Of a stretch of DNA of 36,926 nt, positions 7,677 to 30,034 are shown piece after piece. This DNA is from Chryseobacterium gleum (GTDB taxonomy: Bacteria > Bacteroidota > Bacteroidia > Flavobacteriales_D > Crocinitomicaceae). Positions within the stretch are counted from its first letter, which is position 1; each line of letters begins with the position of its first letter. The notes beneath the pieces were generated by a model. That model worked only from the letters and a program-made list of their open reading frames with translations, did not search any database and was not told where the DNA came from. The translations under genes and the position numbers were made by a program. The DNA lies in assembly GCA_945877005.1 (NCBI GenBank), contig CAMCQL010000002.1:1-36926 (forward strand). Reading direction: 5' to 3'.

Positions 7677-8702
7677 ATGGTCAAATATCTATTTTCATTA
7701 CTTATTTACCTAAGCACACAACATTTAATCTCACAGATACAAGTTAAACCATCAAGCTGTTTAAATAAATCACCAAAAAAAGGAAAATATTTTGAGTGGG
7801 AATGTGGTAAATTAGCAGGTGTTGTAGATTGTAATGTGAAATTAGAATACGATGATAGAGCGAAGCTATATTTGTCAAGTACAGGAGGTAAGCCATATAC
7901 CGGTACCTGTGAAACATGTTTTGAAAATGGAATTAGAGAACGAAAAATATCATTTGTAAATGGAAAAGAAGTTGGTACTGATACTACTAAATATTTATCA
8001 GGATGTCCAATGGTAATTAGACACCATGTTGAAGGTTACGAAAATGGACGTTGGACCTATTTTTATGACTCAACAAATATAATTGCATGGGAAATGGATT
8101 TTTTATTAGGACAAAAACATGGGAAACATATCTATTATAATCGAAAAGGTGATACTACCTTACTTGAAACGTACAAACATGATCAATTAAATGGAGTAAA
8201 ACGTATTTTCTACTCAACAGGTAAAGTACATAGAGAAATACATTACACAAAAGGTCAGCTTGATGGTCAATTTACAGTGTTAAATAAAGAAGAAAAAGTA
8301 ATCGAAAAATTAAATTATTCACTGGGTAAAAAAAATGGAGTATTTTCCTATTATTATGATGATGGTACATTATTAAAAACAGAAACGTGGACCGATGAAA
8401 TGAAAAATGGTCCTTTTATCACCTATTATTACCAAGGGTTTGTACAAATTTCTGAAAATTGGAAAAAGGGTGTGAAAAATGGAGTTTTTGAAGAATACTA
8501 TAATAATAGAAGATTAAAACTAAAAACTATTTATAAAAAAGGGGAGATTATAGAAGAGCATGAATTTAATGAAAAAGGTAAAGAAATTAGAACCTTCCCT
8601 GAAATCATAAAAGAAGAAACTGAAAATGAAGATGATGAAATCGAGCTTGAAAAAACTGATAAACCAAAAAAGAAAAAAAGAAAAAATAAAGACGAAGAAT
8701 AA
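7677..8702 (+). CDS. MORN-repeat-variant protein with a charged K/E-rich C-terminus
   Basis: Repeated blocks such as NGRWTYFYDSTN, KHGKHIYYNRKGD, LNGVKRIFYSTGK, KNGVFSYYYDDGT, KNGPFITYYYQG, KNGVFEEYYNNRR. Confidence 0.85.
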   Translation: MVKYLFSLLIYLSTQHLISQIQVKPSSCLNKSPKKGKYFEWECGKLAGVVDCNVKLEYDDRAKLYLSSTGGKPYTGTCETCFENGIRERKISFVNGKEVGTDTTKYLSGCPMVIRHHVEGYENGRWTYFYDSTNIIAWEMDFLLGQKHGKHIYYNRKGDTTLLETYKHDQLNGVKRIFYSTGKVHREIHYTKGQLDGQFTVLNKEEKVIEKLNYSLGKKNGVFSYYYDDGTLLKTETWTDEMKNGPFITYYYQGFVQISENWKKGVKNGVFEEYYNNRRLKLKTIYKKGEIIEEHEFNEKGKEIRTFPEIIKEETENEDDEIELEKTDKPKKKKRKNKDEE

Positions 8703-8703
8703 A

Positions 8704-9345
8704 TTATTCCCTTTTTAATTTTCCACTTTTCCAATCATTTAAGAATTTACTCCAAGAATACGGATTTAAAAGATTGTTTACTGGTATCTGCCCCATAGAA
8801 TACAATTTAGAATAATTCTGGTTTCTTTGCCAACTATAAGTCATTGAAGCGTCATTTTCAATAGAGGCCGCAATAAAAGCTAAACTTTTACCGGATAATT
8901 GCTCTTGAGCTCTTCTTAAGGCATCATCATAGGGTTTCATTGCAACAAATGCACGTGCAAAATCTTCTAATGAAGGCCATGGATAAACATTCACAATAGG
9001 TAACTCTAATACTTCATGTTGTAGTAGATGAATTACTGAATACCTATTATGTTTTAAAGTGTCAGAAACAATGTAAGAAGAAAGTTTAAATCCAGAACTT
9101 TTAAAGTACAAAGTGTCATTTGGATGTACGACTAATGAAAAAAATCCGTGAAAATCAGTAATCATTCCCCTACCAGTTGACTTATTCAGAACAGAAACAT
9201 AAGATAATTGATCTAAACTATCGGCAGAAAGTACAACTCCAGAAAGCTGTATAAAAAACTCATCTTTATTGTTTGTGCTCTCTTGAGAGAAAAAAGTAAA
9301 AAAATAAAAAAAAATAAAACTAAAACCTAAAATAATAGAACGCAT
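8704..9345 (-). CDS. Exported protein with a carboxypeptidase-like regulatory (CarbopepD_reg-like) domain
   Basis: FIQLSGVVLSADSLDQLSYVSVLNKSTGRGMITDFHGFFSLVVHPNDTLYFKSSGFKLSSY; signal-like MRSIILGFSFIFFYFFTFFSQES indicates a start at 9345 rather than the track start at 9432. Confidence 0.75.
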   Translation of the reverse strand: MRSIILGFSFIFFYFFTFFSQESTNNKDEFFIQLSGVVLSADSLDQLSYVSVLNKSTGRGMITDFHGFFSLVVHPNDTLYFKSSGFKLSSYIVSDTLKHNRYSVIHLLQHEVLELPIVNVYPWPSLEDFARAFVAMKPYDDALRRAQEQLSGKSLAFIAASIENDASMTYSWQRNQNYSKLYSMGQIPVNNLLNPYSWSKFLNDWKSGKLKRE

Positions 9346-9389
9346 AAAGTAAATATTTGTTAAACTAATAAATACATCGTAAATATTAA

Positions 9390-9397
9390 TAAATTTG
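9390..9397 (+). promoter_or_regulatory. Candidate -7 box for guaB
   Basis: TAAATTTG (TAnnTTTG) 25 nt upstream of the guaB ATG; no convincing -33 element at the right spacing. Confidence 0.35.
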
Positions 9398-9415
9398 TGC
9401 AATTTAACAAAATAA

Positions 9416-10894
<1,479 letters not shown>

Positions 10895-10895
10895 A

Positions 10896-12848
10896 ATGAG
10901 AAAAAAAATCTTTTTAGCTCTATGTGGCTTATTATCAATCTATACGTCTGCACAAGAAAACAATCCTATAGTTTTAGAAATAAATAATAAACCGATAACT
11001 AAATCTGAATTTTTAAAAGTTTATTTAAAAAACAATCCTAACCCGAAATTTGACAAAGTAGCTATTGATGAATATTTAAATTTATATAAAAAATTTAAAT
11101 TTAAAGTATTGGAAGCTCAACATCTTGGATATGATACTCTTCCAAATTTGAAAACAGAATTGGCAGGGTATCGAAAAACACTTTCACTACCCTACTTAAC
11201 CGATAAAATTGAAAATGAAAAGTTAATAACAGAATGTTATGAGAGATTAAAAAAAGAAATTAGGGCATCTCATATTCTAATTAAAATTGATGAAAATGCA
11301 CAACCTGCAGATACATTAGAAGCCTATAATAGAATCACTCAGTTAAAAAAGAAAATCGAAAAAGGAGCTGATTTTGGGGCTATTGCAAGAGAATACTCTG
11401 ACGATCCTTCAGCACAATATAACAATGGAGATTTAGGTTATTTCACAGCATTTCAAATGGTGTTTCAATTTGAAAATGCAGCATTCAATACAAAAATTGG
11501 TGAAATTTCTAATCCTATACGAACAAAATTTGGATTTCACATAATTAAAGCAACTGATTCAAGATCCGCAAAAGGCACTATGAAAGCTGCTCATATAATG
11601 ATCTCTGCGAATGAAAAATCAACAGATGAAGAAAAATTAAACGCAGAAAATAAAATCCAAGAAATATATGAAAAACTAAAAAAAGGAGAACCATTTGAAG
11701 AATTAGCTCAAAACTTTTCTGAAGATTTATCCTCTTCTGAAAAGGGTGGTATACTTCCAGAATTCGGAACGGGTACTACTACAAGAATGATTACCGAATT
11801 TGAAACAAATGCTTTTTCACTTGAAAAAGATAACGATTTCAGTGCCCCGTTTAAAACAGACTTTGGATTTCATATTGTAAAACGAATTCAGTTAACACCA
11901 TTAGCAAGTTTTGAAAAATTGAAAAAAGAAATTCAATCTAAAATAAATAGAGATGATCGTGTTCATCTATCTCAAAATCATTTTATTGAAAAATTGAAAA
12001 AAGAATATAATTATCAAGTTCTTTCAACTAAAGAACTAAAATGGTTTTATAAAAACATCGATACAAACTACTATAACGGTGGATGGACAGGAAATGGACT
12101 AACCACCAATAAAGAACTCTTTAAAATAGACCAAAAAGTATTTACCCAAAAAGAATTTTCAAATTATTTAGCTGAAAATTATAGACAAATTAGAAAAACA
12201 TCGATCAAACAACTTGTTAATGATCAATTCAAAAATTGGGTTAATTTTGAATTATTAGCTTTTGAAAAGTCACAATTAGAAGTTAAATATCCTGATTTTA
12301 AAACGTTAATGCAAGAATACCACGATGGAGTTCTATTGTATGAAATCATGACGGATTTAATCTGGAATAAAGCATCATTAGATACAATTGGATTGAATAC
12401 TTATTTTGAAGCAAATAAAAATAAGTACATGTGGAAAGAACGTATCAACGCAACTGTCTACGAATGTGGTAGTCAAAAAATAGCAGATAAAGTCGTGAAA
12501 TTATTAAAAAACGACACCATAAACTCAAGGCATGTACTTCAAATTATCAATGATACGTCTGAATTAAATTTGTCTGTAAAAACAAATTTATACGAAAAAG
12601 AAAATACTGCATTTCTTAAAAATACAACTTTGAAAAAAGGAGTTAACTTACCTTATCAGCATGGACTTAAAATTTACGTGGTAAAAGTGGATGAAATTAT
12701 ACCTCCCTCTGCAAAATTATTGAATGAAACAAAAGGATTAGTAATAACAGATTATCAAAATTATTTAGAGCAAACTTGGCTTGAAGAACTTTCAAAAAAG
12801 TACAGCTTTAAAGTGATTGAAGAAAATATCTATAATCTACAAAATTAA
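10896..12848 (+). CDS. Peptidylprolyl isomerase with two parvulin (PpiC) domains
   Basis: Signal peptide; ASHILIKIDENAQPADTLEAYNRI...FGAIAREYSDDPSAQYNNGDLGYFTAFQMVFQFENAAFNTKIGEISNPIRTKFGFHIIK and a second copy AAHIMISANEKS...FEELAQNFSEDLSSSEKGGILPEFGTG...TDFGFHIVK. Confidence 0.9.
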   Translation: MRKKIFLALCGLLSIYTSAQENNPIVLEINNKPITKSEFLKVYLKNNPNPKFDKVAIDEYLNLYKKFKFKVLEAQHLGYDTLPNLKTELAGYRKTLSLPYLTDKIENEKLITECYERLKKEIRASHILIKIDENAQPADTLEAYNRITQLKKKIEKGADFGAIAREYSDDPSAQYNNGDLGYFTAFQMVFQFENAAFNTKIGEISNPIRTKFGFHIIKATDSRSAKGTMKAAHIMISANEKSTDEEKLNAENKIQEIYEKLKKGEPFEELAQNFSEDLSSSEKGGILPEFGTGTTTRMITEFETNAFSLEKDNDFSAPFKTDFGFHIVKRIQLTPLASFEKLKKEIQSKINRDDRVHLSQNHFIEKLKKEYNYQVLSTKELKWFYKNIDTNYYNGGWTGNGLTTNKELFKIDQKVFTQKEFSNYLAENYRQIRKTSIKQLVNDQFKNWVNFELLAFEKSQLEVKYPDFKTLMQEYHDGVLLYEIMTDLIWNKASLDTIGLNTYFEANKNKYMWKERINATVYECGSQKIADKVVKLLKNDTINSRHVLQIINDTSELNLSVKTNLYEKENTAFLKNTTLKKGVNLPYQHGLKIYVVKVDEIIPPSAKLLNETKGLVITDYQNYLEQTWLEELSKKYSFKVIEENIYNLQN

Positions 12849-14194
12849 TGAGAATTTTAATTATTACACTAATCTTACTTTTTTCAATATCTAATAGTTT
12901 TTCTCAGAAAAGTATTGTTGTTGACAAAATAATAGCTCAAATAGGCGAAAATATAATTCTAAAATCTGACATTGAAACTCAAAAAAATCAGTTAAAAAGT
13001 GATAATATCAAACTAAATTCTACTACAAATTGCTCAATACTAGAAAGTTTACTGATTCAAAATTTACTATTAAATCAAGCAGAAATAGATAGTATAAAAA
13101 TAACTGACAATCAAGTTGACTCAGAAATGGAAAACAGAATCAGAGTCATTGAAAATCAGATTGGGGGTAGACAAAAGATGGAAGAATTCTACAAAAAAAC
13201 AATTACTCAGATTAAAAATGAATTTCGACCTATTATAAAAAAAAGGTTGATGACAGAAGAAATGCAACGACAAATTTCCAATGGAATAACTATTTCTCCT
13301 AAGGAAATAGAAATATATTTTAACACACTTGTAACGGATAGTATCCCTTTAATTAATTCAAAATTAAGCTTCCAACAAATTGTAGTTTTCCCAGAAATAA
13401 CTAAAGAAGATAAACAAAATGCTATTAATAAACTTAAAGAAATTCGTGAGAAAATCATTGTAGGAAAAAGTTTTGATGCGCAAGCAAGAATACATTCTCA
13501 AGATCCTGGAAGTGCAGCCCAAGGAGGGAAAATCACTGCCAGTAGAGGGATGATGGTCGCGCCATTTGAAGCAACTGCATTCAGTTTAAAAGAAGGTGAA
13601 ATAAGTGATGTATTTGAAACAGATTATGGATACCATATTATCCAGTTAATTGATAGAAAAGGTGATGATTATACTTGCAGGCACATTCTAATTGTCCCTG
13701 AATTCAACAGTATAAGCCTATCAAAAGCGAGTACTCAAATTGAAGAATGTTATAAAAAACTTAAAGAAAATCAATTAACCTGGGATGAATCAGTAACTAC
13801 TTACTCAAACGATCTCAACACAAAACAAAACAAAGGAATAATTTCAAATCCAATAACTGGAGAAAATACTTGGAGTATGGAAGAATTAAATCAAATTGAT
13901 CAACAAATTTATCTTCTTACTGATGCTTTAGAAAAAGGTGATATTACAAAACCTTCAATGTACTTTGACATGAATGAAAAAAAACAAGGAATACGAATAG
14001 TTCGATTAGCAGAACGAACCTTACCACACAGAGCTAACCTGAAGGATGATTACACATTGATTCAAAAAGCATGTGAACATTCAAAAAAAGAAAAAGTTTT
14101 TTCAAAATGGATCAGCGATAAAATATACAATGCATTTATAAGAATAGACGAGGAGTTTACATCATGTAATTACAAATACAACTGGAAAAAATAA
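12848..14194 (+). CDS. surA: SurA-like periplasmic peptidylprolyl isomerase
   Basis: Signal peptide, SurA N-terminal IVVDKIIAQIGENIILKSDIETQ, parvulin FDAQARIHSQDPGSAAQGGKITASRGMMVAPFEATAFSLKEGEISDVFETDYGYHIIQLIDRKGDDYTCRHIL; TAATG coupling with the upstream gene. Confidence 0.88.
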   Translation: MRILIITLILLFSISNSFSQKSIVVDKIIAQIGENIILKSDIETQKNQLKSDNIKLNSTTNCSILESLLIQNLLLNQAEIDSIKITDNQVDSEMENRIRVIENQIGGRQKMEEFYKKTITQIKNEFRPIIKKRLMTEEMQRQISNGITISPKEIEIYFNTLVTDSIPLINSKLSFQQIVVFPEITKEDKQNAINKLKEIREKIIVGKSFDAQARIHSQDPGSAAQGGKITASRGMMVAPFEATAFSLKEGEISDVFETDYGYHIIQLIDRKGDDYTCRHILIVPEFNSISLSKASTQIEECYKKLKENQLTWDESVTTYSNDLNTKQNKGIISNPITGENTWSMEELNQIDQQIYLLTDALEKGDITKPSMYFDMNEKKQGIRIVRLAERTLPHRANLKDDYTLIQKACEHSKKEKVFSKWISDKIYNAFIRIDEEFTSCNYKYNWKK

Positions 14195-14199
14195 ATAAA

Positions 14200-15153
14200 A
14201 TGCAAGATATTGATAGAGCAAATAAATTACGATCAGACTACCAAATTTTAAAGAATGAAATTCACAAAATTATTGTAGGTCAAGATGAGGTTGTAGACTT
14301 AGTTCTCATTGCAATCTTATCTCGTGGTCATGCATTGCTAGTAGGTGTTCCTGGATTAGCCAAAACATTATTAGTAAATACAATTGCACAAGCGTTAGGA
14401 CTTAATTTTAATCGAATTCAGTTTACACCAGATTTAATGCCTTCAGACATTATAGGTTCTGAAATATTAGACGAATCAAAAAACTTTAAATTTATAAAGG
14501 GACCATTATTTAGTAATATTATACTTGCTGACGAAATTAACCGTACACCTCCAAAAACTCAAGCGGCATTATTAGAAGCAATGCAAGAAAAAAATGTTAC
14601 AGCAAGTGGTAATACCTATTCATTACCTCATCCATTTTTTGTTTTAGCAACTCAGAATCCAATTGAACAAGAAGGAACCTATCCACTTCCTGAAGCACAA
14701 CTTGATAGATTCATGTTCAACATATGGGTTGATTACCCCTCTTATAATGAAGAACTTGCTATTGTTAGAGCAACAACAGAAGACCAACTTATTGAAGTAA
14801 ATCAAGTGTTGAATGAGGAAGAAATAATAGAACATCAAAATTTGATAAGAAAAATTCCAGTTACAGACCATGTATTAGAATATGCGGTTAAATTAGTCGC
14901 AAAAACAAGAAAAGATGGTTTATTTGCTACCGAAATCACTAAAAACTATCTCTCATGGGGAGCAGGACCTCGTGCATCTCAGTTTCTAATAATTGGAGCA
15001 AAATGTCATGCTGTTTTACAAGGGAAATTATCACCAGATATAGAAGATGTTCAAGCAGTTGCTAAATCGATTTTAAGACATCGCTTAGTCAGAAACTATA
15101 GGGCTGAAGCAGAAGGTTATACCATGGATAAAATCATTGAATCGTTGCTTTAA
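14200..15153 (+). CDS. MoxR family AAA+ ATPase
   Basis: IVGQDEVVDLVLIAILSRGHALLVGVPGLAKTLLVNTIAQALG...ILADEINRTPPKTQAALLEAMQEKNVTASG...FFVLATQNPIEQEGTYPLPEAQLDRFMF. Confidence 0.95.
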   Translation: MQDIDRANKLRSDYQILKNEIHKIIVGQDEVVDLVLIAILSRGHALLVGVPGLAKTLLVNTIAQALGLNFNRIQFTPDLMPSDIIGSEILDESKNFKFIKGPLFSNIILADEINRTPPKTQAALLEAMQEKNVTASGNTYSLPHPFFVLATQNPIEQEGTYPLPEAQLDRFMFNIWVDYPSYNEELAIVRATTEDQLIEVNQVLNEEEIIEHQNLIRKIPVTDHVLEYAVKLVAKTRKDGLFATEITKNYLSWGAGPRASQFLIIGAKCHAVLQGKLSPDIEDVQAVAKSILRHRLVRNYRAEAEGYTMDKIIESLL

Positions 15154-15178
15154 TTTCCACTTATAGCTTACAACTAAA

Positions 15179-16048
15179 ATGAATTCGAATGAAATTGAAT
15201 CACTGATTAACCTTTTGGACGATCCAGATGAAAATATATTTCAACACATACAAGAAAAGCTAATTCAAAGTGGTAAAGAAATTGTACCCCTTCTAGAAAA
15301 ATATTGGGAAGAAAATAAATATAACACCCTTTTTTTAGAGCGAATTGAAACACTCATTGATATTATTCAATTTAACGAGATAATTGAAGAACTTAAAAAA
15401 TGGGTTTCTACAGAGAATAAAATTTTAGATGGGTGGATCATTTTAACTAAATGGCAATTTCCTGGAATAAATAAAAGTCAGATCAAGGAAAAGATTGAAG
15501 AAATTAAAAATGATGTTTGGATTGAAATTAAAGAAAAAAAAACTGCTCAAGAGATAATTCTAACTTTTAATAAAGTTTTTTATACTCATTACAAATTTAA
15601 AGGCAATACTAAAAATTATAATTCTCCAATTAATTCATTTATTCATACAGTTTTAGAAACTAAACATGGCAACCCATTAAGTTTGTCGATTTTATACAGT
15701 TCAATTGCTCAAATGCTTCATATTCCAATTTATGGTGTCAACCTACCAAATCATTTCATTTTAGCGTATGTTGATCCGGATTTACCTTCAAAAGATTACG
15801 AAAGTATAACAAAATCAAATATTCTATTTTATATAAATGCGTTTTCAAATGGAGTAATATTGAATGAAAAAGACATTCTAATTTTTTTAAAAGAACTTCA
15901 AATAGAACCTATTGAAAGTTTTTTTGTCCCCTGTTCGAAGAAAACCATTTTACTTAGAATAATTTCAAATTTAATTGCCTCTTATCAACAATTAGGAAAT
16001 AAAAGAAAAGTTGAACAATTAATTCAACTGAAACACATATTTGATTGA
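15179..16048 (+). CDS. SirB1/transglutaminase-like (Transglut_core2) family protein
   Basis: FIHTVLETKHGNPLSLSILYSSIAQMLHIPIYGVNLPNHFILAYVD, the SirB1-family core pattern. Confidence 0.8.
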   Translation: MNSNEIESLINLLDDPDENIFQHIQEKLIQSGKEIVPLLEKYWEENKYNTLFLERIETLIDIIQFNEIIEELKKWVSTENKILDGWIILTKWQFPGINKSQIKEKIEEIKNDVWIEIKEKKTAQEIILTFNKVFYTHYKFKGNTKNYNSPINSFIHTVLETKHGNPLSLSILYSSIAQMLHIPIYGVNLPNHFILAYVDPDLPSKDYESITKSNILFYINAFSNGVILNEKDILIFLKELQIEPIESFFVPCSKKTILLRIISNLIASYQQLGNKRKVEQLIQLKHIFD

Positions 16049-16120: not shown

Positions 16121-18358
16121 TTATCTTTCTAAGTGTATTGAAAGAGCGTTGTCATAAATATCTTTTGCTTCATGACAGAATCCATAATGATCATCATCAA
16201 TAACAAATTTACCTTTTGTAACATGTCCTAAAAGAGTGAAATTAACTCCAGAAGCTAACATAAATTCAATAAAATCTTCTTCTTTTTCTTCAGTAACTGT
16301 AACTACTGCTCTACCTTGAGATTCACCAAATAAAAAGGCATCTTCACGAATCTCAGAATCTGTTACAATATCAAAACCTAACCCTCTAGGGAAAGACATT
16401 TCTGCCAAAGTAATAAAAAGTCCACCATCTGAACAATCGTGAACAGCATTTACGTATTTATTTATGATCAATCCCTGAATTCCTTTATGTAATTCAAATT
16501 CATTTTCAAGATCAAAATGTGGTGCAGGAGAAGCTGCGATTTTATGGTAAGAAGCAAGATATTCTGAGGAAGCAATATCTTCAATAATATCACCTAATAA
16601 AAAAATTAAATCTCCTTTTTGTTTAAAATCAAGCGTCATCAAATTCGCTTTATCCTCTATAACCCCTATCATTCCAATAGTTGGTGTAGGGAAAACCGGC
16701 ACCTCTACTCCACCAATCACTGATTGATTATAAAAAGACACGTTTCCGCCAGTAACTGGGGTTGCATATTTTAAACATGCAGTTGACATCCCTTTTATAG
16801 CGCCAACAAATTGCCAAAATGATTCAGGATTGTATGGATTACCGAAATTTAAACAGTTGGTAATTGCACTTGGAATACCACCTGCACAACTAATATTTCT
16901 TGCTGCTTCAGAAACAGCAATCATAGTACCTACTTCAGGATCTGCATTCACATAGCGTGAATTACAATCAACAGTCATTGCCAAAGCTTTATTTGAACCT
17001 TTAATGTTCACAACTCCAGCATCTGAAGGTTGATTTGTAACCATATTTTTGGTCCCCACCATTGAGTCATATTGTTCGTAAACCCAACGTTTAGAAGCGA
17101 TGTTCGGATGTTGTAATAAAAATAAAGCAACCTCTTTTAAATCTTCAGGTTGTTGAATTTGATCAATTGTAAATTTCTTAAATTCTGCATAATAAGCAGG
17201 CTCAGTATATTCTCGTTGATACTGTGGAGCACCACCACCCAAAACAAGAGATTCTGCTGGTACATCCCCAACTAATTCTCCATTCATATAATAACGAATC
17301 CTCCCTGTATCAGTTACAGTTCCAATTTCTTCTGCATGTAAATCCCATTTATCAAAAATAGACTTCACAACTTGTTCTTGGCCTTTTTTAACAACAACCA
17401 ACATACGTTCTTGCGATTCAGATAAAAGAATTTCATAGGGCAACATATTATCTTGTCTTGTAGGCACTTTATCTAAATAAATTTCCATCCCAACACCTCC
17501 AGCTGCACTCATTTCACAAGTAGAACATGTAATACCCGCTGCCCCCATATCTTGCATACCGACAATTGCATCAGTATCTGCTAATTCCATCGTTGCTTCC
17601 AATAAAAGTTTTTCTTGGAAAGGATCACCTACTTGAACAGAAGGCAAATCTGAAGCAGACTCCTCTGTGATATCTTTAGATGCAAAAGCAGCACCAGCAA
17701 TCCCATCTTTACCTGTAGCAGAACCTACAATATAAACTGGATTTCCTGGACCTTTAGCTTTTGCCGAAATTACTTTTTTAGTGTCAATTAATCCAGCTGA
17801 AAAAGCATTCACTAATGGGTTTTGATTGTAGGAGCTATCAAAAAACACTTCACCACCAACAATTGGAATACCAAACGAGTTTCCATAATCTCCAATACCT
17901 TTAACAACTCCTTTCACCAACCATTTTGTTCGATCAGAGTTGATATCTCCAAATCGTAATGAATTTAATTGAGCGATGGGTCTTGCTCCCATTGTAAATA
18001 TATCTCTATTGATACCTCCAACTCCAGTCGCAGCTCCTTGATAAGGTTCTAACGCACTTGGGTGATTGTGAGACTCAATCTTAAATACACATCCAATACC
18101 ATCACCTAAATCAACAAGTCCTGCATTTTCCTCACCTGCCTTAACTAGCATGTGTGGACCATCTTTAGGGAGTTGTTTTAACCAATAAATAGAGTTTTTA
18201 TAAGAACAGTGTTCTGACCACATAACAGAATAGACACTTGTTTCTGTGAAATTTGGGGTACGTCCCAAAATGTCTTTTATCATTTCAAACTCATCAGCTC
18301 TAAGTCCAAGCTCTATTGCTTGATCTAAGGTTGCTTCTTGTTGTAAGGTACTTTCCAT
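16121..18358 (-). CDS. purL: Phosphoribosylformylglycinamidine synthase subunit II (FGAM synthase)
   Basis: SVMWSEHCSYKNSIYWLKQLP, VKAGEENAGLVDLGDGIGCVFKIESHNHPSALEPYQGAATGVGGINRD, MQDMGAAGITCSTCEM, VHDCSDGGLFITLAEM; start at MESTLQQ (18358) is more likely than the track start at 18412. Confidence 0.96.
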   Translation of the reverse strand: MESTLQQEATLDQAIELGLRADEFEMIKDILGRTPNFTETSVYSVMWSEHCSYKNSIYWLKQLPKDGPHMLVKAGEENAGLVDLGDGIGCVFKIESHNHPSALEPYQGAATGVGGINRDIFTMGARPIAQLNSLRFGDINSDRTKWLVKGVVKGIGDYGNSFGIPIVGGEVFFDSSYNQNPLVNAFSAGLIDTKKVISAKAKGPGNPVYIVGSATGKDGIAGAAFASKDITEESASDLPSVQVGDPFQEKLLLEATMELADTDAIVGMQDMGAAGITCSTCEMSAAGGVGMEIYLDKVPTRQDNMLPYEILLSESQERMLVVVKKGQEQVVKSIFDKWDLHAEEIGTVTDTGRIRYYMNGELVGDVPAESLVLGGGAPQYQREYTEPAYYAEFKKFTIDQIQQPEDLKEVALFLLQHPNIASKRWVYEQYDSMVGTKNMVTNQPSDAGVVNIKGSNKALAMTVDCNSRYVNADPEVGTMIAVSEAARNISCAGGIPSAITNCLNFGNPYNPESFWQFVGAIKGMSTACLKYATPVTGGNVSFYNQSVIGGVEVPVFPTPTIGMIGVIEDKANLMTLDFKQKGDLIFLLGDIIEDIASSEYLASYHKIAASPAPHFDLENEFELHKGIQGLIINKYVNAVHDCSDGGLFITLAEMSFPRGLGFDIVTDSEIREDAFLFGESQGRAVVTVTEEKEEDFIEFMLASGVNFTLLGHVTKGKFVIDDDHYGFCHEAKDIYDNALSIHLER

Positions 18359-18523
18359 AGTATTTGTAATTGAGAAACAAAAATAAGCATAAGGAAGATT
18401 AAATAAATACATTTTATATGAAAATACGTATTATGGATTCAAAATAATATTGAATTTATATTTGTGATATGAATTACGTTCAAAAAAATAAATAACTATC
18501 ATTGCATCTCTAACATCAATCAT

Positions 18524-19810
18524 TTGGAATTTATTCTATTTTTTGCTGTATTTCTATTTCTATTAATTAGTTTTAATAAATGGAATTTACTGAAATTTGA
18601 AGAAATTTCACCGCTAACTTTACAACTTATCTTTCTCATAAAATTAGGCATTGTATTTTTCGGTATCTATTTTTTTAGTAATTACAAAGGTTATGGTGAA
18701 AGCTCAGACATCTACTCATTTTTTAATGCAGCAATAAAAACGTCAAAAACAATTTCAATCATCGATCAATTAAAAATTATTTGTCATATCAGTCCATCAA
18801 ATGCAGCAATCAGCTATTTAGATCATTTAACCTATTGGAGAAAAGATTTTGACTACGGATTACCCAATGACAATCAAACAATGATTAAATTCAGTCTTTT
18901 TCTATCCGTAATTGGAATCAACAACTACCCTACACATGCACTAATTTCAACTTATCTTGGTTACTTTGGTATACTTATGGTTTTTAAGTCGCTTTATAAT
19001 TCTTCAAAAAAAACTTTATTTAACCTTCTATTCATCACATTATCACCAACTTTATTGTTTTTTAGTTCAGGGATTTATAAAGAAAGCCTTCTAATTCTTT
19101 ACATCGGAGTTTTAGTAAAAATAGTAACATCAAATTTGAAGTTTACATACCTCATTGCATTCTTATTTGTATATTACCTATTTCCAATTAAACCTTATTT
19201 TTTTATAATAATTACTCCTTCAATTCTTGTTTTACTGTTCTCAAAATATTTCAACTTAAGAAAACCATTTTTAATTCAATGTATTGTGTATTTAGGTTTA
19301 TTTTTCACCTTCACCATTTATTCTAGCATTCAAGAAAAAAAAATAGCTAAAGATGATGTCAAGTATGGAAAAATATTTGATCCTATAAAAATGATGACCT
19401 ATAAACAAGATGATTTTTTAGATGACGGGCTAGAAAAAAGTTCGAAAATGAACAAAACACTAATGGTTTTAGAAAAAAACAACACAAACATTTACAAAGC
19501 AATACCTATAGGACTTTTCAGCGGGTGGTTGCACCCTTCCATTTTTAATGTTTTAAAAAAAACATTTCTCCCTTTTGCTGTTGAGTACACGATCATCTTC
19601 TCCTTGATACTCATATTTGTTATACAAACTGTTCAAAAAAAAATAATCTTTAATTCAGAAACTGCTTTTGTTTTAACCATTTGTATTGTTTACAGTACCT
19701 TTATTGGAATTACCTCTCCAATAATTGGGAACCTAATTCGTTTTAAAACACCAATAATGCCTTTTTTCTATTATTTAATTAGTCTTATCCAGTTTAAAAG
19801 ATCTTTGTAA
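18524..19810 (+). CDS. Polytopic membrane protein of unknown function, paralogue 1 of 3 (TTG start)
   Basis: Many TM segments; shares DIYSFFNAA, YWRKDFDYGLPNDNQT, LSPTLLFFSSGIYKES and SPIIGNLIRFKTPIMP with the two following ORFs. Confidence 0.8.
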   Translation: MEFILFFAVFLFLLISFNKWNLLKFEEISPLTLQLIFLIKLGIVFFGIYFFSNYKGYGESSDIYSFFNAAIKTSKTISIIDQLKIICHISPSNAAISYLDHLTYWRKDFDYGLPNDNQTMIKFSLFLSVIGINNYPTHALISTYLGYFGILMVFKSLYNSSKKTLFNLLFITLSPTLLFFSSGIYKESLLILYIGVLVKIVTSNLKFTYLIAFLFVYYLFPIKPYFFIIITPSILVLLFSKYFNLRKPFLIQCIVYLGLFFTFTIYSSIQEKKIAKDDVKYGKIFDPIKMMTYKQDDFLDDGLEKSSKMNKTLMVLEKNNTNIYKAIPIGLFSGWLHPSIFNVLKKTFLPFAVEYTIIFSLILIFVIQTVQKKIIFNSETAFVLTICIVYSTFIGITSPIIGNLIRFKTPIMPFFYYLISLIQFKRSL

Positions 19811-21183
19811 TGTTGGCCACATTTATTTTTTTTCTTTTCACTTTATTCTTCATTTATAAATCAAAATTCTTTGAAGTTTCTCCAATTTCTAAACAGCTGA
19901 TTGTAGTTGCTTACTTAATCAAACTGTTCTTTGCAGCTTTACTTTATTCATTGTACACCTTTTATTATAAAGACCTTAGCAAAAATGATATCTATAAATA
20001 TTATACAGATTCGAAAGTACTCGTTGATTTATTTTACCATTCACCGAAAGATTTTTTTTCTTTTTTAAACGGAAATGGATTAAGAGAATTAAAATTAATT
20101 TATTGGGAGAAAACAAATAGTTATGGTTTTTTTAATGACAATAAAACATTAATATTATTTCAGACATTTCTTGGGATTGTCACATTTAAATCCATTGGTG
20201 TAAACTTTGTTGTATTTACATTCATTTCATTTTCAAGTATATTCGCCTTGATTAAGTGTTTTGAACACTTTCAACTCAAACTATCAAAACTTACTTTCTT
20301 TTTGTTTTTTTTCTTTCCGAGTGTATTATTATGGAGTTCCGGCCCAACAAAAGAGTCTTTGATCCTAAGTAGCATCAATATAATTGTTTATCAATTAGTC
20401 AAATACAATTCATCAAAAAAAATAGTAAATCTTTTTTTAGGTATATTTTTCCTGTTTTGTTTACTTATTTCCAAAAACTACATGTTTGGCTTGTTTGTGA
20501 TTGCTGCTGGTGTCTACATTTTATGGATCTTGTTCCCCAAGATCCCACTTTCTTTTACCGGTTTTTTATATACGATAATTTTACTATTTAGCATTTTTAT
20601 CATTGACCTTGTGCATCCAGCACTGAAAGGAATTGATTTTGAGAAAAAAAAGAATGAACAAAGAAGTGTCTCTGAACAAAAAAAATTAAGCGGTGCCTAT
20701 CAACTTCAAGTTTCAGGTAAAACTTACAATTTACTAAATACTCTCAGCTTCAAGCAAAGAGATAACCTAATCGAGAGTCACGAAGAAAATGCGAATAGTA
20801 TTATTGCTATCAATAAAATAAATGGATCATTTTTAAACTTTTTAATCGCTTTTCCTATTGCAATTTGGAACGTTCTATTTTTTCCAAGTTGTCCTTCTGT
20901 TTTTATTGGATTTAAAGCAATCTATTATTTAGAAAATACCTTTTTATTAATGCTTCTATTCTATTCAGTATACAACTACAATAGAAGCAATCATCCTAAT
21001 CTAAAAAAAATGACGATATTTCTCTTTCTCTTTTCATTTTTGGTATTCGCTTTTCAAGGTATGATTACACCCGTACTTGGTAATTTATACCGATACAAAA
21101 GTGTTGTTATTCCCGTTTTATGCTTTGCATTAATTCTTTCGTCTAACGCTAAGCTATTTTTCTCTAAAACTAAAGACACATAA
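19810..21183 (+). CDS. Polytopic membrane protein of unknown function, paralogue 2 of 3
   Basis: DIYKYYTDSKVL, YWEKTNSYGFFNDNKT, FFPSVLLWSSGPTKES, TPVLGNLYRYKSVVIP; TAATG overlap with paralogue 1. Confidence 0.85.
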   Translation: MLATFIFFLFTLFFIYKSKFFEVSPISKQLIVVAYLIKLFFAALLYSLYTFYYKDLSKNDIYKYYTDSKVLVDLFYHSPKDFFSFLNGNGLRELKLIYWEKTNSYGFFNDNKTLILFQTFLGIVTFKSIGVNFVVFTFISFSSIFALIKCFEHFQLKLSKLTFFLFFFFPSVLLWSSGPTKESLILSSINIIVYQLVKYNSSKKIVNLFLGIFFLFCLLISKNYMFGLFVIAAGVYILWILFPKIPLSFTGFLYTIILLFSIFIIDLVHPALKGIDFEKKKNEQRSVSEQKKLSGAYQLQVSGKTYNLLNTLSFKQRDNLIESHEENANSIIAINKINGSFLNFLIAFPIAIWNVLFFPSCPSVFIGFKAIYYLENTFLLMLLFYSVYNYNRSNHPNLKKMTIFLFLFSFLVFAFQGMITPVLGNLYRYKSVVIPVLCFALILSSNAKLFFSKTKDT

Positions 21184-21193
21184 ATAGAGATGC

Positions 21194-21201
21194 TATATTT
21201 G
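21194..21201 (+). promoter_or_regulatory. Candidate internal -7 box upstream of paralogue 3
   Basis: TATATTTG (TAnnTTTG) 18 nt upstream of ATG 21219; no clear -33 box. Confidence 0.3.
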
Positions 21202-21218
21202 TATAAATTAGTTTTGAA

Positions 21219-22532
21219 ATGATCAATACATTCCTCTATTTATTCTATTTATTACTGATTTTTATAGCATTTAAAAAAGTTTCTTTCTTTAAAAATTCAC
21301 CGCTTTCAATTTATCTGATTGTATTATTCTTCAGTCTAAAAATAGTGTCTTCTTTTGTCATGTATGCTATTTATAGTTACTACTACACCGACAGAGGAAC
21401 AGCAGATATCTTTAAATATTACGACGACGCGAATATTTTGTTCAATCAATTATTTCTTAAAAGTCCAATCGAATACATCAAGTTAACACTCGGACTACAG
21501 CAAGAATCTTCATTGATTTATAATGCATTGCAACAAACAAATTTTTGGTACAAACCAAGAGAATTTAACATCTACAATGACAATAGAACAATCATTCGTT
21601 TAAATATGTTTATTCGAATTTTTTCAAATAATTTTTACCATATCCACTCCCTCTTGATCATTTTCATCTCTTTCATTGGACTAGTTAGCATCCATAAAAC
21701 CTTTCTGTTTTTTTCAAAACAATCATCAACACTCATTGCTTGTTCAATTTTTCTTATTCCATCGGTAATATTCTGGAGCTCAGCGAATCTAAAAGAAGGA
21801 ATATTGATTGGGGCGTTAGGAGTATTCCTATGGATGTACACTCAATTACTCTATTTAAATCTCTCAATTAAAAGAAAAATCATTATTGTACTCGCGCTAA
21901 TAATAAGTAGTCTTATTCTAGCAGTTATTAAACCCTACATATTAATAGTTTCTATCCCTTCACTAATAGCTTGGACAATCGCTAAAATCATCAAAACTAA
22001 AAAAACATTACTTACTTTTATTTTAACCCATTTAATTGTTATCATCAGCGGATTGATCATCCATAAAATTATCCCTTCGATAAATATTGTTCAAAATATA
22101 ACCTTTAAAAACAATGACTTTATTAATGTTTCAAATGACACTAAAGCAGGTAGTTCGTTTACGATCAACAAACTTGATGGTAGTGTAACTACTATTATTA
22201 ATAATCTATTACCCGCATTCATCAATAACTTTATCAGACCTTTTCCTTCGGAATGCAATTCAATGCTTGTAACTTTAGCTTGTATTGAAAACTACTTGAT
22301 TGTACTACTTATCATCTTCTCTATATATTGTTTTATAAGATATAAAAAAACACTTCTTCCCATACAGTGCTATTCATTTTTCATGACTCTATTATTAGGA
22401 TTAATAATTGGTTTAATCGTGCCAGTATTTGGGGCAAGTGTTCGGTATAAAATTCCTTACCTTCCCTTTTTAATCCCATCACTACTAATGATTTTTTTTA
22501 AAACAAATCAAAAGAATTTATGCGAAAAATAG
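21219..22532 (+). CDS. Polytopic membrane protein of unknown function, paralogue 3 of 3
   Basis: DIFKYYDDANIL, FWYKPREFNIYNDNRT, LIPSVIFWSSANLKEG, VPVFGASVRYKIPYLP. Confidence 0.85.
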   Translation: MINTFLYLFYLLLIFIAFKKVSFFKNSPLSIYLIVLFFSLKIVSSFVMYAIYSYYYTDRGTADIFKYYDDANILFNQLFLKSPIEYIKLTLGLQQESSLIYNALQQTNFWYKPREFNIYNDNRTIIRLNMFIRIFSNNFYHIHSLLIIFISFIGLVSIHKTFLFFSKQSSTLIACSIFLIPSVIFWSSANLKEGILIGALGVFLWMYTQLLYLNLSIKRKIIIVLALIISSLILAVIKPYILIVSIPSLIAWTIAKIIKTKKTLLTFILTHLIVIISGLIIHKIIPSINIVQNITFKNNDFINVSNDTKAGSSFTINKLDGSVTTIINNLLPAFINNFIRPFPSECNSMLVTLACIENYLIVLLIIFSIYCFIRYKKTLLPIQCYSFFMTLLLGLIIGLIVPVFGASVRYKIPYLPFLIPSLLMIFFKTNQKNLCEK

Positions 22533-23857
22533 CCGCCGCAATTTCACTAATTTTCATCTGTTTATCATGTATGAAAGGAAAAAAAGTAGATGTAATTTTC
22601 CATAATGCCTCAATTAATTTACTCGATGAAAATCAGACAGTCCATCAGGCGATGGCAGTTAAAAATGGAAAAATAATTGAAACAGGCCCTGAACGTCAAA
22701 TACTGAATAAGTATTCTTCCAATGAAACAGTTGACTTACAGCAACATAAAGTATATCCAAGTTTTATATGTTCGTATGTACCGTTAGAACAATTAATGAT
22801 TCAAATGGAATCTACAGATCTAAAAACAGCTCAATCCGAAAATGCGATTTTAACTCTAATTGAAAAGCACTTTTCCATTTTCCCCAAACCAACTTCTTTC
22901 ATTTCACTCAATTTTCCATTAAAATTTCTAAATGGTAACTTAAAAATAGTTCAACTACTCAACGAAAAATACAAGGATAAAATCATCGTTTTTTATTCAA
23001 AAAATATAAATAAAGTTTTATACAAATTAAAAAAAGGAAGCTTTAAAGAGGTGGAAGTATCAGAAAATGAAGCCTACAATTGGATAACTAAAATAATTCA
23101 ACTTAATTCAGGCAAAAAACAACAAATTATCGATCAAATACTTACATCCTATCTAGAAAATGGATATACAACTTTAGACATTCCAATTAATCACTATGAA
23201 GACTTGAAAATAATTGAGAAAACCTCAAAAGAAAAAAAACTAACGACTCATTTTTACTTAACGGAAGAATTATTTCGGAAAAATATAAACGTAAAATCGA
23301 ATAAATATAATGGCTTAATCATCGACACACTTATTGATTTGTCACAGCAAATTTCATATGCGAAAAAGCATCAATTACAGATTGTATTTCCTTCAAATAT
23401 AAAAGATGAAAATATAAAACTAATCCAACAACATTTATCTGATTATACCAAAGACCATCGATGGAAAATCATCATCAATAAGACACCATCTGCTAATGAA
23501 CTCTCATTTTATACCAATAATAATTTTTCACTTATATTTCATTCAAATTTAGAGTATAAACTACAAAACGATTTCACTTACTTTTCCATTAGAAACAATA
23601 GTTCAAACCCTACTAGCTTCTTTAAATTAATCGATGATCAGAAAATAATTGACTTCGATATCGTTAACACCGCTTTATACAGCCAAACAAAATGGGCTTC
23701 TTATCAAAATTTTGAAGAATTAAATTTAGGAACACTTGAGAAAAATAAATGGGCTACTTTCATTGTATTGAATTCAAAACTCCGAGATAACAACAACTCT
23801 TCAGTTTTTCCATTACAAATATATTCGAAGGGGAAAAACATATATAAAGCTTACTAA
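22520..23857 (+). CDS. Lipoprotein, degenerate amidohydrolase_3 (YtcJ-like) homologue lacking metal-ligand motifs
   Basis: Lipobox-like ISLIFICLSC at the N-terminus; VDVIFHNASINLLDENQTVHQAMAVKNGKIIETGPERQIL...VDLQQHKVYPSFICSYVP and LYSQTKWASYQNFEELNLGTLEKNKWATFIVLNS align by eye to the amidohydrolase_3 N- and C-terminal composite beta-domain. Confidence 0.75.
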   Translation: MRKIAAAISLIFICLSCMKGKKVDVIFHNASINLLDENQTVHQAMAVKNGKIIETGPERQILNKYSSNETVDLQQHKVYPSFICSYVPLEQLMIQMESTDLKTAQSENAILTLIEKHFSIFPKPTSFISLNFPLKFLNGNLKIVQLLNEKYKDKIIVFYSKNINKVLYKLKKGSFKEVEVSENEAYNWITKIIQLNSGKKQQIIDQILTSYLENGYTTLDIPINHYEDLKIIEKTSKEKKLTTHFYLTEELFRKNINVKSNKYNGLIIDTLIDLSQQISYAKKHQLQIVFPSNIKDENIKLIQQHLSDYTKDHRWKIIINKTPSANELSFYTNNNFSLIFHSNLEYKLQNDFTYFSIRNNSSNPTSFFKLIDDQKIIDFDIVNTALYSQTKWASYQNFEELNLGTLEKNKWATFIVLNSKLRDNNNSSVFPLQIYSKGKNIYKAY

Positions 23858-27065: not shown

Positions 27066-28034
27066 GTGAATATTCGAAGTCTTCTTCTTTTATTAATTAT
27101 CTACAGTCCTACTTTTTTTGGACAAGATATGCATTGGTCACTCCCTACACAGAATCCAATTGGAATGAACCCCTCAAATGTCGGGAACTTTAAAGGCGAT
27201 TTAAGAATTATTTCCAATTACAAAGACCAATGGAGAACTGTAACAAAGCCTTTCAATACGATTAATTTAAGCGTGGACAAAGTAATCAACAGCAGGTTTT
27301 CTTTAGGTAGTACAATTTTGCACGATTTAGCTGGTGATGGTAAATACCGTACTTTAGATTTTAATATTCTCTCTTCGTATACCCTCTTCACAGGAAAAAA
27401 TAGTAAACTAACCGCGGGAGTTTCATTAGGAATAATTTACAAACAAATTTCACCTTCAAATTTTAAATTCGACAAACAATTTGACGGATACATGTTCCAA
27501 GAAAATTTTTCTTCGAATGAAAACTTTCAATCAACTTCCCAGTTTAATTTGAATGTTGGAACAGGGCTCCAACTGATTATTAAACAACATGAATTTGGAT
27601 TCTCTGTTTTAAATTTAAACCGGCCAAACCAAGGTTTTTTTAACACCACAATAAATAGACCTATACGACTGTTATTTAGCTATCAAACACTTTTGAACAA
27701 AAATGGTATACTTCAGTTCTCACCTTCTATTGTCTACCAGAAACAAAGTGTTTATTCAGAATTGATTACAGGAATAAAAAGCTCTTATCAAATCAATAAT
27801 AAAAAATTAAAGTCAATTAATTTAGGATTGAATATAAGATTCAAAGATGCTTTAATTCCTTATATAGGTTTTGAATTTAATCATTTACAAGTAGGAATAG
27901 GATATGATGTAAACACTTCAAGTTTAAATTTAGCTAGCAGAAACAGAGGCGGTACTGAATTGTACCTTCAATACCTATTCGTTAAGCCACCAATTAAAAA
28001 TTTAGAACATAGAAAATGCAAAGATTTTTTATAA
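27066..28034 (+). CDS. PorP/SprF family T9SS-associated outer membrane protein
   Basis: Signal peptide then QDMHWSLPTQNPIGMNPSNVGNFKGDLRIISNYKDQWRTVTKPFNTINLSVDKVI; GTG at 27066 (MNIRSLLLLLII) preferred over TTG at 27051. Confidence 0.85.
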   Translation: MNIRSLLLLLIIYSPTFFGQDMHWSLPTQNPIGMNPSNVGNFKGDLRIISNYKDQWRTVTKPFNTINLSVDKVINSRFSLGSTILHDLAGDGKYRTLDFNILSSYTLFTGKNSKLTAGVSLGIIYKQISPSNFKFDKQFDGYMFQENFSSNENFQSTSQFNLNVGTGLQLIIKQHEFGFSVLNLNRPNQGFFNTTINRPIRLLFSYQTLLNKNGILQFSPSIVYQKQSVYSELITGIKSSYQINNKKLKSINLGLNIRFKDALIPYIGFEFNHLQVGIGYDVNTSSLNLASRNRGGTELYLQYLFVKPPIKNLEHRKCKDFL

Positions 28035-30034
28035 TACTACTACTTATTTTTTTTAATAATTTAAACTTAAATGCTCAAGATAGTATCCCGAAGAGCAAAA
28101 AAGAACTTAAAAAAACCATTGAAAAAAACAAGGAAACTGGAGACTTCATTGAAGCACTCTCCTACTTAAAACAATTGTATCTTCAAGATACAACAAATAT
28201 CAAAACATTGTACAACTATGCACTAACACTCAAAGAATACAAAGATTATGTAAACGCAGAAAAAAAATTCACTGAATTAATTCTAAAAGATAAAAAAAAC
28301 GACTATGCTCCTTATGCTATTTTCGAATTAGCACAACTAAAGAAACATAACAAAAAATATTTAGAAGCAATTTCAACTTTTAAAAAAGCATTCGAACAGA
28401 ACAAAAGTGTGCAAGATAATTACATTCAACAAAAAACAAAGCGTGAAATTGAATCCTGTCAATTTGCAATGAATAGTCAAAAAGATTCGTTAGAATTTAA
28501 AGTAACAAAATTAGACACAACAATTAACAGTAAAAACAGCGAATTTATTCATACAATCAAAGACGGTAAAATAATATTTAGCTCTTTAAGATCGGATTCT
28601 ATTGATAGAAACGAAGTAGTTTATTCGGAAAATTATCTAAATAAACTATATAGCTACGATACACTTACAAAAAAAACTAATGAAATTAAAGAATTAAATA
28701 TTGAAAAGTTCAATACTTCCAATGGGACATTTTCCATTTACGGAAATCGTTTCTTTTATTCAGTTTGCGACACCAATTATCTTGATCCAAAATGTAAAAT
28801 AGTGAGTGCAAGCTATAGGAATAATAAATTTGGTGTAATTGATACTCTTTTTGGAGAAATTAATTCCGAAGTTGGGTCGTTTAGCATGCCTTATGTCACT
28901 AAAATAAATGGTAAAGAAATTATTTTTTACTGCTCAAACGAAAAATCAGGAAAAGGGGGATATGATGTTTATTCAGGAGAGTTAATACTAAATCAAGTAA
29001 TAAATTCAAAACCTGTGCCTGCAATTAACACAATCGACAACGAAATCACCCCCTTTTACGATACCACAACGAATGAATTATATTTTTCAAGTACTTGGCA
29101 CAACGGATTTGGAGGGTATGATGTTTTTAAAGTAAACTATATAAAACCCACAAAAAATTCAATTGTAAATTTAGGCCCAATAGTAAATAGCCCCGCAAAT
29201 GAAACCTATTTTTTCAAAAATAAAACAGCGTATTATTTTACAAGTAATCGTCTAGGATCAAATTACAGTAAAAACCCAACATGTTGTGGAGACATTTATA
29301 AAGCAGAGAAAAAGATTCTAATAAATGAAATAAAAGATTCAATTATTCCAAATTTAACACTTTCGAAAAAAAATATCGACTCACTTAAACTAAAAGTAGA
29401 AACAGAACAAAAAATTGAGGCTAGACAAACCGAACAAAAAAATAATTACATTCAATTAACCAAACTATTACCGCTTACATTGTATTTTCACAACGATGAG
29501 CCGAATCCAAAAAGCAATGACACAACAACAAATCTAAATTACGAAGAAACGTATCAAAAATACATCGAGTTACTCCCAAGATATCAATCTGAATACACAC
29601 AAGATTTAAAAAAAGAAAAAAAAGCTGAAGCTGAAGAAGATATTTTAAATTTTTTTAGCGATAAGGTCATACATGGATACAATCAATTAAATGATTTTTT
29701 GAGCCTTCTTGAACTGGAGTTAAAACAGGGAACATATTTCAAACTTGAAATCAAAGGATTTGCAAGTCCTTTAGCAAAAACAAAATACAATAGAAATTTA
29801 AGTAAAAGAAGAATAGAATCCTTTAAAAATTATATTCGAAAGTATAATTCAGGAGTTTTAATGGATTTCTATGAAAATAAAAAAACACTTGAAATAATAG
29901 AAGTGCCTTTTGGTGAAGAAAAAGCGGATCACTTTGTGAGTGATAATCCAAATGATACTAAAAAATCTGTTTATTCCAAAGCAGCATCTTTAGAACGTAA
30001 AATAGAAATCCTTTCTGTAGAGATAGTAAAATAA
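28016..30034 (+). CDS. OmpA family protein with TPR-like and PD40/WD40-like beta-propeller regions (PorE-like architecture)
   Basis: Signal peptide; TPR-like N-terminus (YVNAEKKFTELILKDKKNDYAPYAIFELAQL); propeller blades EIIFYCSNEKSGKGGYDVYSGEL, ELYFSSTWHNGFGGYDVFKVNY; C-terminal LEIKGFASPLAKTKYNRNLSKRRIESFKNYI. Confidence 0.85.
   Translation: MQRFFIILLLIFFNNLNLNAQDSIPKSKKELKKTIEKNKETGDFIEALSYLKQLYLQDTTNIKTLYNYALTLKEYKDYVNAEKKFTELILKDKKNDYAPYAIFELAQLKKHNKKYLEAISTFKKAFEQNKSVQDNYIQQKTKREIESCQFAMNSQKDSLEFKVTKLDTTINSKNSEFIHTIKDGKIIFSSLRSDSIDRNEVVYSENYLNKLYSYDTLTKKTNEIKELNIEKFNTSNGTFSIYGNRFFYSVCDTNYLDPKCKIVSASYRNNKFGVIDTLFGEINSEVGSFSMPYVTKINGKEIIFYCSNEKSGKGGYDVYSGELILNQVINSKPVPAINTIDNEITPFYDTTTNELYFSSTWHNGFGGYDVFKVNYIKPTKNSIVNLGPIVNSPANETYFFKNKTAYYFTSNRLGSNYSKNPTCCGDIYKAEKKILINEIKDSIIPNLTLSKKNIDSLKLKVETEQKIEARQTEQKNNYIQLTKLLPLTLYFHNDEPNPKSNDTTTNLNYEETYQKYIELLPRYQSEYTQDLKKEKKAEAEEDILNFFSDKVIHGYNQLNDFLSLLELELKQGTYFKLEIKGFASPLAKTKYNRNLSKRRIESFKNYIRKYNSGVLMDFYENKKTLEIIEVPFGEEKADHFVSDNPNDTKKSVYSKAASLERKIEILSVEIVK

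Follow-up and report, generated by a model that had tools for sequence, protein, structure and literature searches.

A tandem triplet of diverged membrane proteins in Bacteroidota represents an unnamed family of probable GT-C_A-type glycosyltransferases

What could be the role of three adjacent genes for polytopic membrane proteins when none of them can be given a family name? The question was raised by a 36,926-nucleotide stretch of DNA (the window) from a freshwater member of the Bacteroidota, a contig of a 1.9-Mb genome assembly that is 80% complete. The first-pass annotation had described three tandem ORFs on the same strand, here A, B and C, as strongly diverged paralogues sharing four motifs (A-D). 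The ORFs were found at the positions and lengths it gave (Table 1), and each motif is present in them letter for letter. Pairwise identity is 23-27% over nearly the full length. BLASTP E-values were 3e-15 (A-C), 7e-14 (A-B) and 1e-28 (B-C), and Smith-Waterman z values among the three were 20-31 against 200 shuffles. By sequence comparison, A, B and C are thus true paralogues with a homology far above chance.

The immediate surroundings of the triplet were then inspected. No in-frame ATG was found upstream of the TTG start of ORF A. Since A shares 1 nt with B, 35 nt lie between B and C, and the end of C extends 13 nt into the next gene, all four are probably co-transcribed. This next gene contains no HxH metal motif compared with two in its 542-aa Fluviicola orthologue, and in the window's genus it is apparently either degenerating or taking on another role. 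Several Bacteroidota lineages keep purL and the family side by side, as synteny only. A functional link to purL, the SDR dehydrogenase, the acyl-CoA ligase or rsmG was set aside, because these genes are housekeeping or unrelated and vary between lineages. Elsewhere in the window, the ORFs at 7677-8702 (341 aa) and 28016-30034 (672 aa) gave no Pfam match at E 1e-5; the latter is conserved in nine of the compared loci.

Table 1. Positions of the triplet and its two flanking genes in the window.
Feature	Position	Strand	Description
purL	16121..18412	-	Divergent neighbour; named from sequence
ORF A	18524..19810	+	428 aa, TTG start; GT-C_A-like polytopic protein; predicted catalytic Asp62 at 18707-18709
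ORF B	19810..21183	+	457 aa; paralogue; predicted catalytic Asp60 at 19987-19989
ORF C	21219..22532	+	437 aa; paralogue; predicted catalytic Asp63 at 21405-21407
Next gene	22520..23857	+	Lipoprotein-like, amidohydrolase-related; weak Amidohydro_3 match; conserved neighbour outside the family

Scans of Pfam, NCBIfam and PHROGs returned no match for A, B or C, and neither ORF C nor a 51-member profile retrieved anything useful from the PDB sequences. The family is so far unnamed and absent from the three protein-family libraries searched, so its genes have likely been passed over as hypothetical. AF2 models of ORF C (m38a1c18fb9cc; pLDDT 92.6, pTM 0.92) and ORF A (mea449dbcdc51; pLDDT 89.8) were the basis of a Foldseek comparison with the PDB, a check that the first-pass annotation had proposed. 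ORF C matched ArnT (probability 1.00), OST (0.99), ALG12 (0.99) and AglB (0.95), and ORF A matched AftB (0.85), Pmt4 (0.84) and ALG12 (0.72), with DPY19 (0.38) first by E-value. The best matches were mainly GT-C enzymes; because all E-values exceeded 0.04 and no TM-score exceeded 0.42, they hold at the level of the fold class only. A viral fold library gave weak matches only.

Profile comparison pointed in the same direction. Aligned by hhalign with PMT_2 proteins, the family reached 88-93% probability (E 3e-6 and 4e-7) over only about 149 columns, compared with 0.04-3.4% for the controls (flippase, acyltransferase and reversed). Single members gave weak matches to PMT_2 (9e-4) and to the hexose transferase WsfD (1.3e-5). 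From models and profiles together, membership of the GT-C fold class is well supported, not proven. A polytopic protein of no known family might instead be a transporter or flippase with no enzymatic role. XPR1, a phosphate exporter, stood high in the fold list of ORF A at a low probability of 0.12, and transporters reached about 0.1 in the search with ORF C. Since the fold search favours GT-C enzymes and the flippase profile stayed below 1%, on which the flippase reading was rejected, a transport function is extremely unlikely.

The Wzy-like polymerases and ligases, which the first-pass annotation had offered as an alternative class, fared poorly. The profile probability of Wzy_C (PF04932) was 0.3-0.5%, on which membership of Wzy_C/WaaL was rejected, and the best match of the ORF C model to a SEDS-type fold was 0.15. 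In a Pfam scan PF04932 appeared in 2 of 51 members, at a best E of 0.1. The EpsG profile (PF14897) reached 19-43%, a range that comes from two EpsG sequences only, and no Pfam EpsG match was found among the 51 members.

For each protein about 11 transmembrane helices are predicted, in an N-out orientation. The number of Lys plus Arg per sequence was 0.08 before helix 1 and 3.12 in loop 19-32, and the alternation broadly continues along the later loops. Hence, the N-terminus, the first large loop and the conserved polar loop residues are placed outside; every strongly conserved polar loop residue falls on that side, and the conserved K41 lies within a helix. A fourth paralogue of the same genome (L007:661-3864, minus strand; 1067 aa) has a signal-peptide-like start and a right-handed beta-helix, followed by the family domain. 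It independently supports the N-out orientation, as an exported beta-helix domain ahead of helix 1 requires it. Open frames of this type, 1021-1088 aa long, occur in most genomes of the window's genus and in two of genus g9, and these copies group within the C clade of the tree. Loci L007 and L008 carry near-identical ends of the beta-helix copy with the same adjoining alcohol-dehydrogenase gene, and are probably strain variants within the assembly.

Conservation was counted over 100 family members in ORF C numbering. D63, P181 and P341 are invariant, followed by K192 (98%), R409 (96%) and E357 (95%); position 193 is E or D and position 238 is K or R in all 100. No His is conserved among these members, and a single Arg is near-invariant. 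D63, K192, E193 and K238 are retained by all three copies. A and C also have E357, as do 11 of 13 B members, and position 409 in A is R or K. The shared signature of the first-pass annotation thus stood in part: its acidic Asp is the invariant residue (100/100), but motif B, with its NDN, is typical of the triplet's branch only and is replaced in copies inside polysaccharide clusters. According to the C model and family conservation, D63 starts helix 63-79 directly after helix 31-55, with the loop placed outside.

The modelled fold, the PMT_2 profile comparison and the periplasmic placing of the conserved residues all support the earlier GT-C glycosyltransferase idea. We consider it likely that A, B and C belong to a new, unnamed family of GT-C_A-type glycosyltransferases at the periplasmic face, with a putative catalysis, donor and acceptor as follows. 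The invariant Asp would open the first large periplasmic loop and sit at the tip of a juxtamembrane helix, where ArnT, PglB and PimE have their catalytic base; for PimE this role is proposed for the Asp at the JM1 tip, which corresponds to that of ALG6, ArnT and PglB (PMC12041525). K192-E/D193, K/R238, E357 and R409, at the periplasmic loop ends, may bind a polyprenyl-linked donor through its phosphate or pyrophosphate. The enzyme would then transfer a sugar or oligosaccharide from this lipid onto a periplasmic acceptor, be it a surface glycan, a lipid or a protein. The three copies would be separate enzymes that work in parallel or successively, each most likely having an acceptor or linkage of its own.

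The genomic context differs between two types of family copy. Type-1 copies are often neighbours of purL, and in many genomes a gene for an SDR, for an amidohydrolase-like lipoprotein or for an acyl-CoA ligase comes after the copy; in some Bacteroidales a type-1 copy lies downstream of a GT4 glycosyltransferase gene. Type-2 copies mostly lie inside surface-polysaccharide clusters, together with glycosyltransferases, flippases, Wza/Wzc-like proteins, polysaccharide deacetylases and acetyltransferases; those of the host's own genus stand beside CDP-glucose-type sugar genes, as judged from sequence. All 15 copies labelled cluster-borne grouped together in a quick tree, with a low basal support of 0.24. 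At L108, L109, L191 and L192 the type-2 copy adjoins a GNAT-type acetyltransferase gene with a deacetylase-like gene near (Pfam domain confirmation in L109 only). At L091 a 902-aa YfhO-like membrane protein (8810-11518, minus strand) directly adjoins a family member, and at L106 the open frame at 12761-16000 starts in a way resembling the Cas9 N-terminus.

Such clusters bear on another reading, namely that the family is a Wzy-type polymerase or ligase built on a GT-C_A-like scaffold, with undecaprenyl-diphosphate-linked repeat units as the substrate. OST is a GT-C_A enzyme able to use lipid-PP-oligosaccharide donors (PMC10920833). In the clusters with a Wzx-type flippase of genomes G182, G011 and G146, some also with Wza/Wzc-like proteins, no other polymerase-like polytopic protein was seen in the surveyed region. 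The same was true of G338 within its own 16-kb locus, yet its flanks hold further polytopic proteins, untyped, and the clusters of G537 and G441 come with an apparent ABC exporter. Moreover, the window's triplet adjoins housekeeping genes outside any glycan cluster, and the conserved residues differ from the GT-C3 polymerase signature of two Arg, one Asp and one His (PMC10920833). With the low Wzy_C profile probability counted as well, this polymerase or ligase role is rather unlikely.

Co-occurrence of the copies was also counted. In the family of G193, 13 genomes had at least two matches, 18 had none and none had exactly one. For the family of G334 the listed matches were tallied manually, with E at most 1e-20 as the cut-off; of the 40 genomes that qualified, 35 had at least two and five had one. 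Since genomes with a single copy are common in the family of G441, the type-1/type-2 pairing is a tendency and no rule. One copy of each type was confirmed only for the loci that were read, and the counts were drawn from related genomes. Because all 13 matched genomes in the first case and 35 of 40 in the second have at least two copies, they fit a broader picture, in which both types, the extra copies of the genus and the beta-helix fusion would form an unrecognised periplasmic glycan-assembly pathway of Bacteroidota, with GT-C_A enzymes doing the work of a Wzy polymerase or ligase. We regard it as speculative and doubtful.

Are the three copies then distinct glycosyltransferases or parts of one machine? 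In the tree they form orthologous groups A, B and C, in agreement with the old duplication assumed earlier, although long-branch joins are unsure. Of 13 genomes of the window's genus, six have A-B-C with the order kept and seven have B-C without A; the B-C-only genomes present in the tree cluster together, so that a single loss of A fits. The triplet appears to stem from old duplications confined to one genus among the lineages looked at, and other Bacteroidota lineages mostly have one or two copies. A neighbourhood survey thus gave no sign, among these lineages, of a triplet conserved across Bacteroidota. Wherever calculable, dN/dS was 0.11-0.18 for each copy, which indicates that A, B and C are kept as separate proteins.

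The first-pass annotation had read three copies in a row as subunits of one complex or as successive steps on a glycan. The kept gene order in six genomes and the overlapping or nearly touching genes would suit one complex with a single catalytic member. However, the core residues are retained in all three copies, E357 mostly and R409 as R or K in A, and about half of the genus lacks A. One complex is thus improbable. Purifying selection on each copy together with the retained core residues argues for three distinct enzymes, and successive steps would be the better half of the earlier proposal.

A scan of genome contigs yielded 32 loci, almost all titled Bacteroidota. The locus L009, on a contig titled Candidatus Planktophila lacus (Actinomycetota), holds an A-B-C triplet with 68-79% identity to the window, and its title or binning is probably wrong. 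Matches were present in 135 of 150 genomes of the host's family and, in three other families, in 13/31 (that of G193), 41/61 (G441) and 52/60 (G334); the distribution is patchy by lineage. In a sample of the phylum at least 22 of 393 genomes had a match, a lower bound as at most four candidates were scored per genome. This number bears on the idea that the family is the oligosaccharyltransferase or ligase of the phylum-wide Bacteroidota O-glycosylation system, whose transferase/ligase is reported as undiscovered (PMC12871550). The fold class would be right, but that system is described as common to the phylum, and we dropped this highly improbable assignment on distribution.

The family is widespread in Bacteroidota and enzyme-like, and several periplasmic enzymes of surface-glycan assembly are unknown in this phylum. 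If it is a GT-C family, its members are testable candidates for the missing periplasmic steps, and the kept triplet would be a natural case of a GT-C-like enzyme diversifying its specificity.

Compared with known systems, the GT-C_A lipid-P-sugar transferases (ArnT/GT83, PMT/GT39 and PF13231 PMT_2) match the family's models at the fold-class level and share with it the first-loop Asp at the juxtamembrane helix tip and the profile likeness; the family differs by one more N-terminal helix (in the N-out reading), about 12% identity and the lack of Pfam-level membership. The oligosaccharyltransferases STT3/AglB/PglB (GT66) likewise match its models in fold class, with probabilities of 0.69-0.99 for the better matches, whereas the family has no large C-terminal soluble domain and no PDB sequence match to them. 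BP-Pol polymerases of clan GT-C3 (GT122-124) and EpsG have in common with it a long loop near the N-terminus and Asp plus Arg, but the His and second Arg set them apart. Wzy_C/WaaL (GT-C_B) proteins share the polytopic form and periplasmic chemistry without a fold match. GT136 and the Gtr-type three-component systems, likened here by description, use GT-C enzymes to add periplasmic sugars to surface glycans (PMC11127046). Unlike in the Gtr-type systems, no dedicated GtrA/GtrB-like pair was recognised beside the triplet; the founding GT136 enzyme has an extra periplasmic domain (PMC11127046), like the beta-helix fusion of this family.
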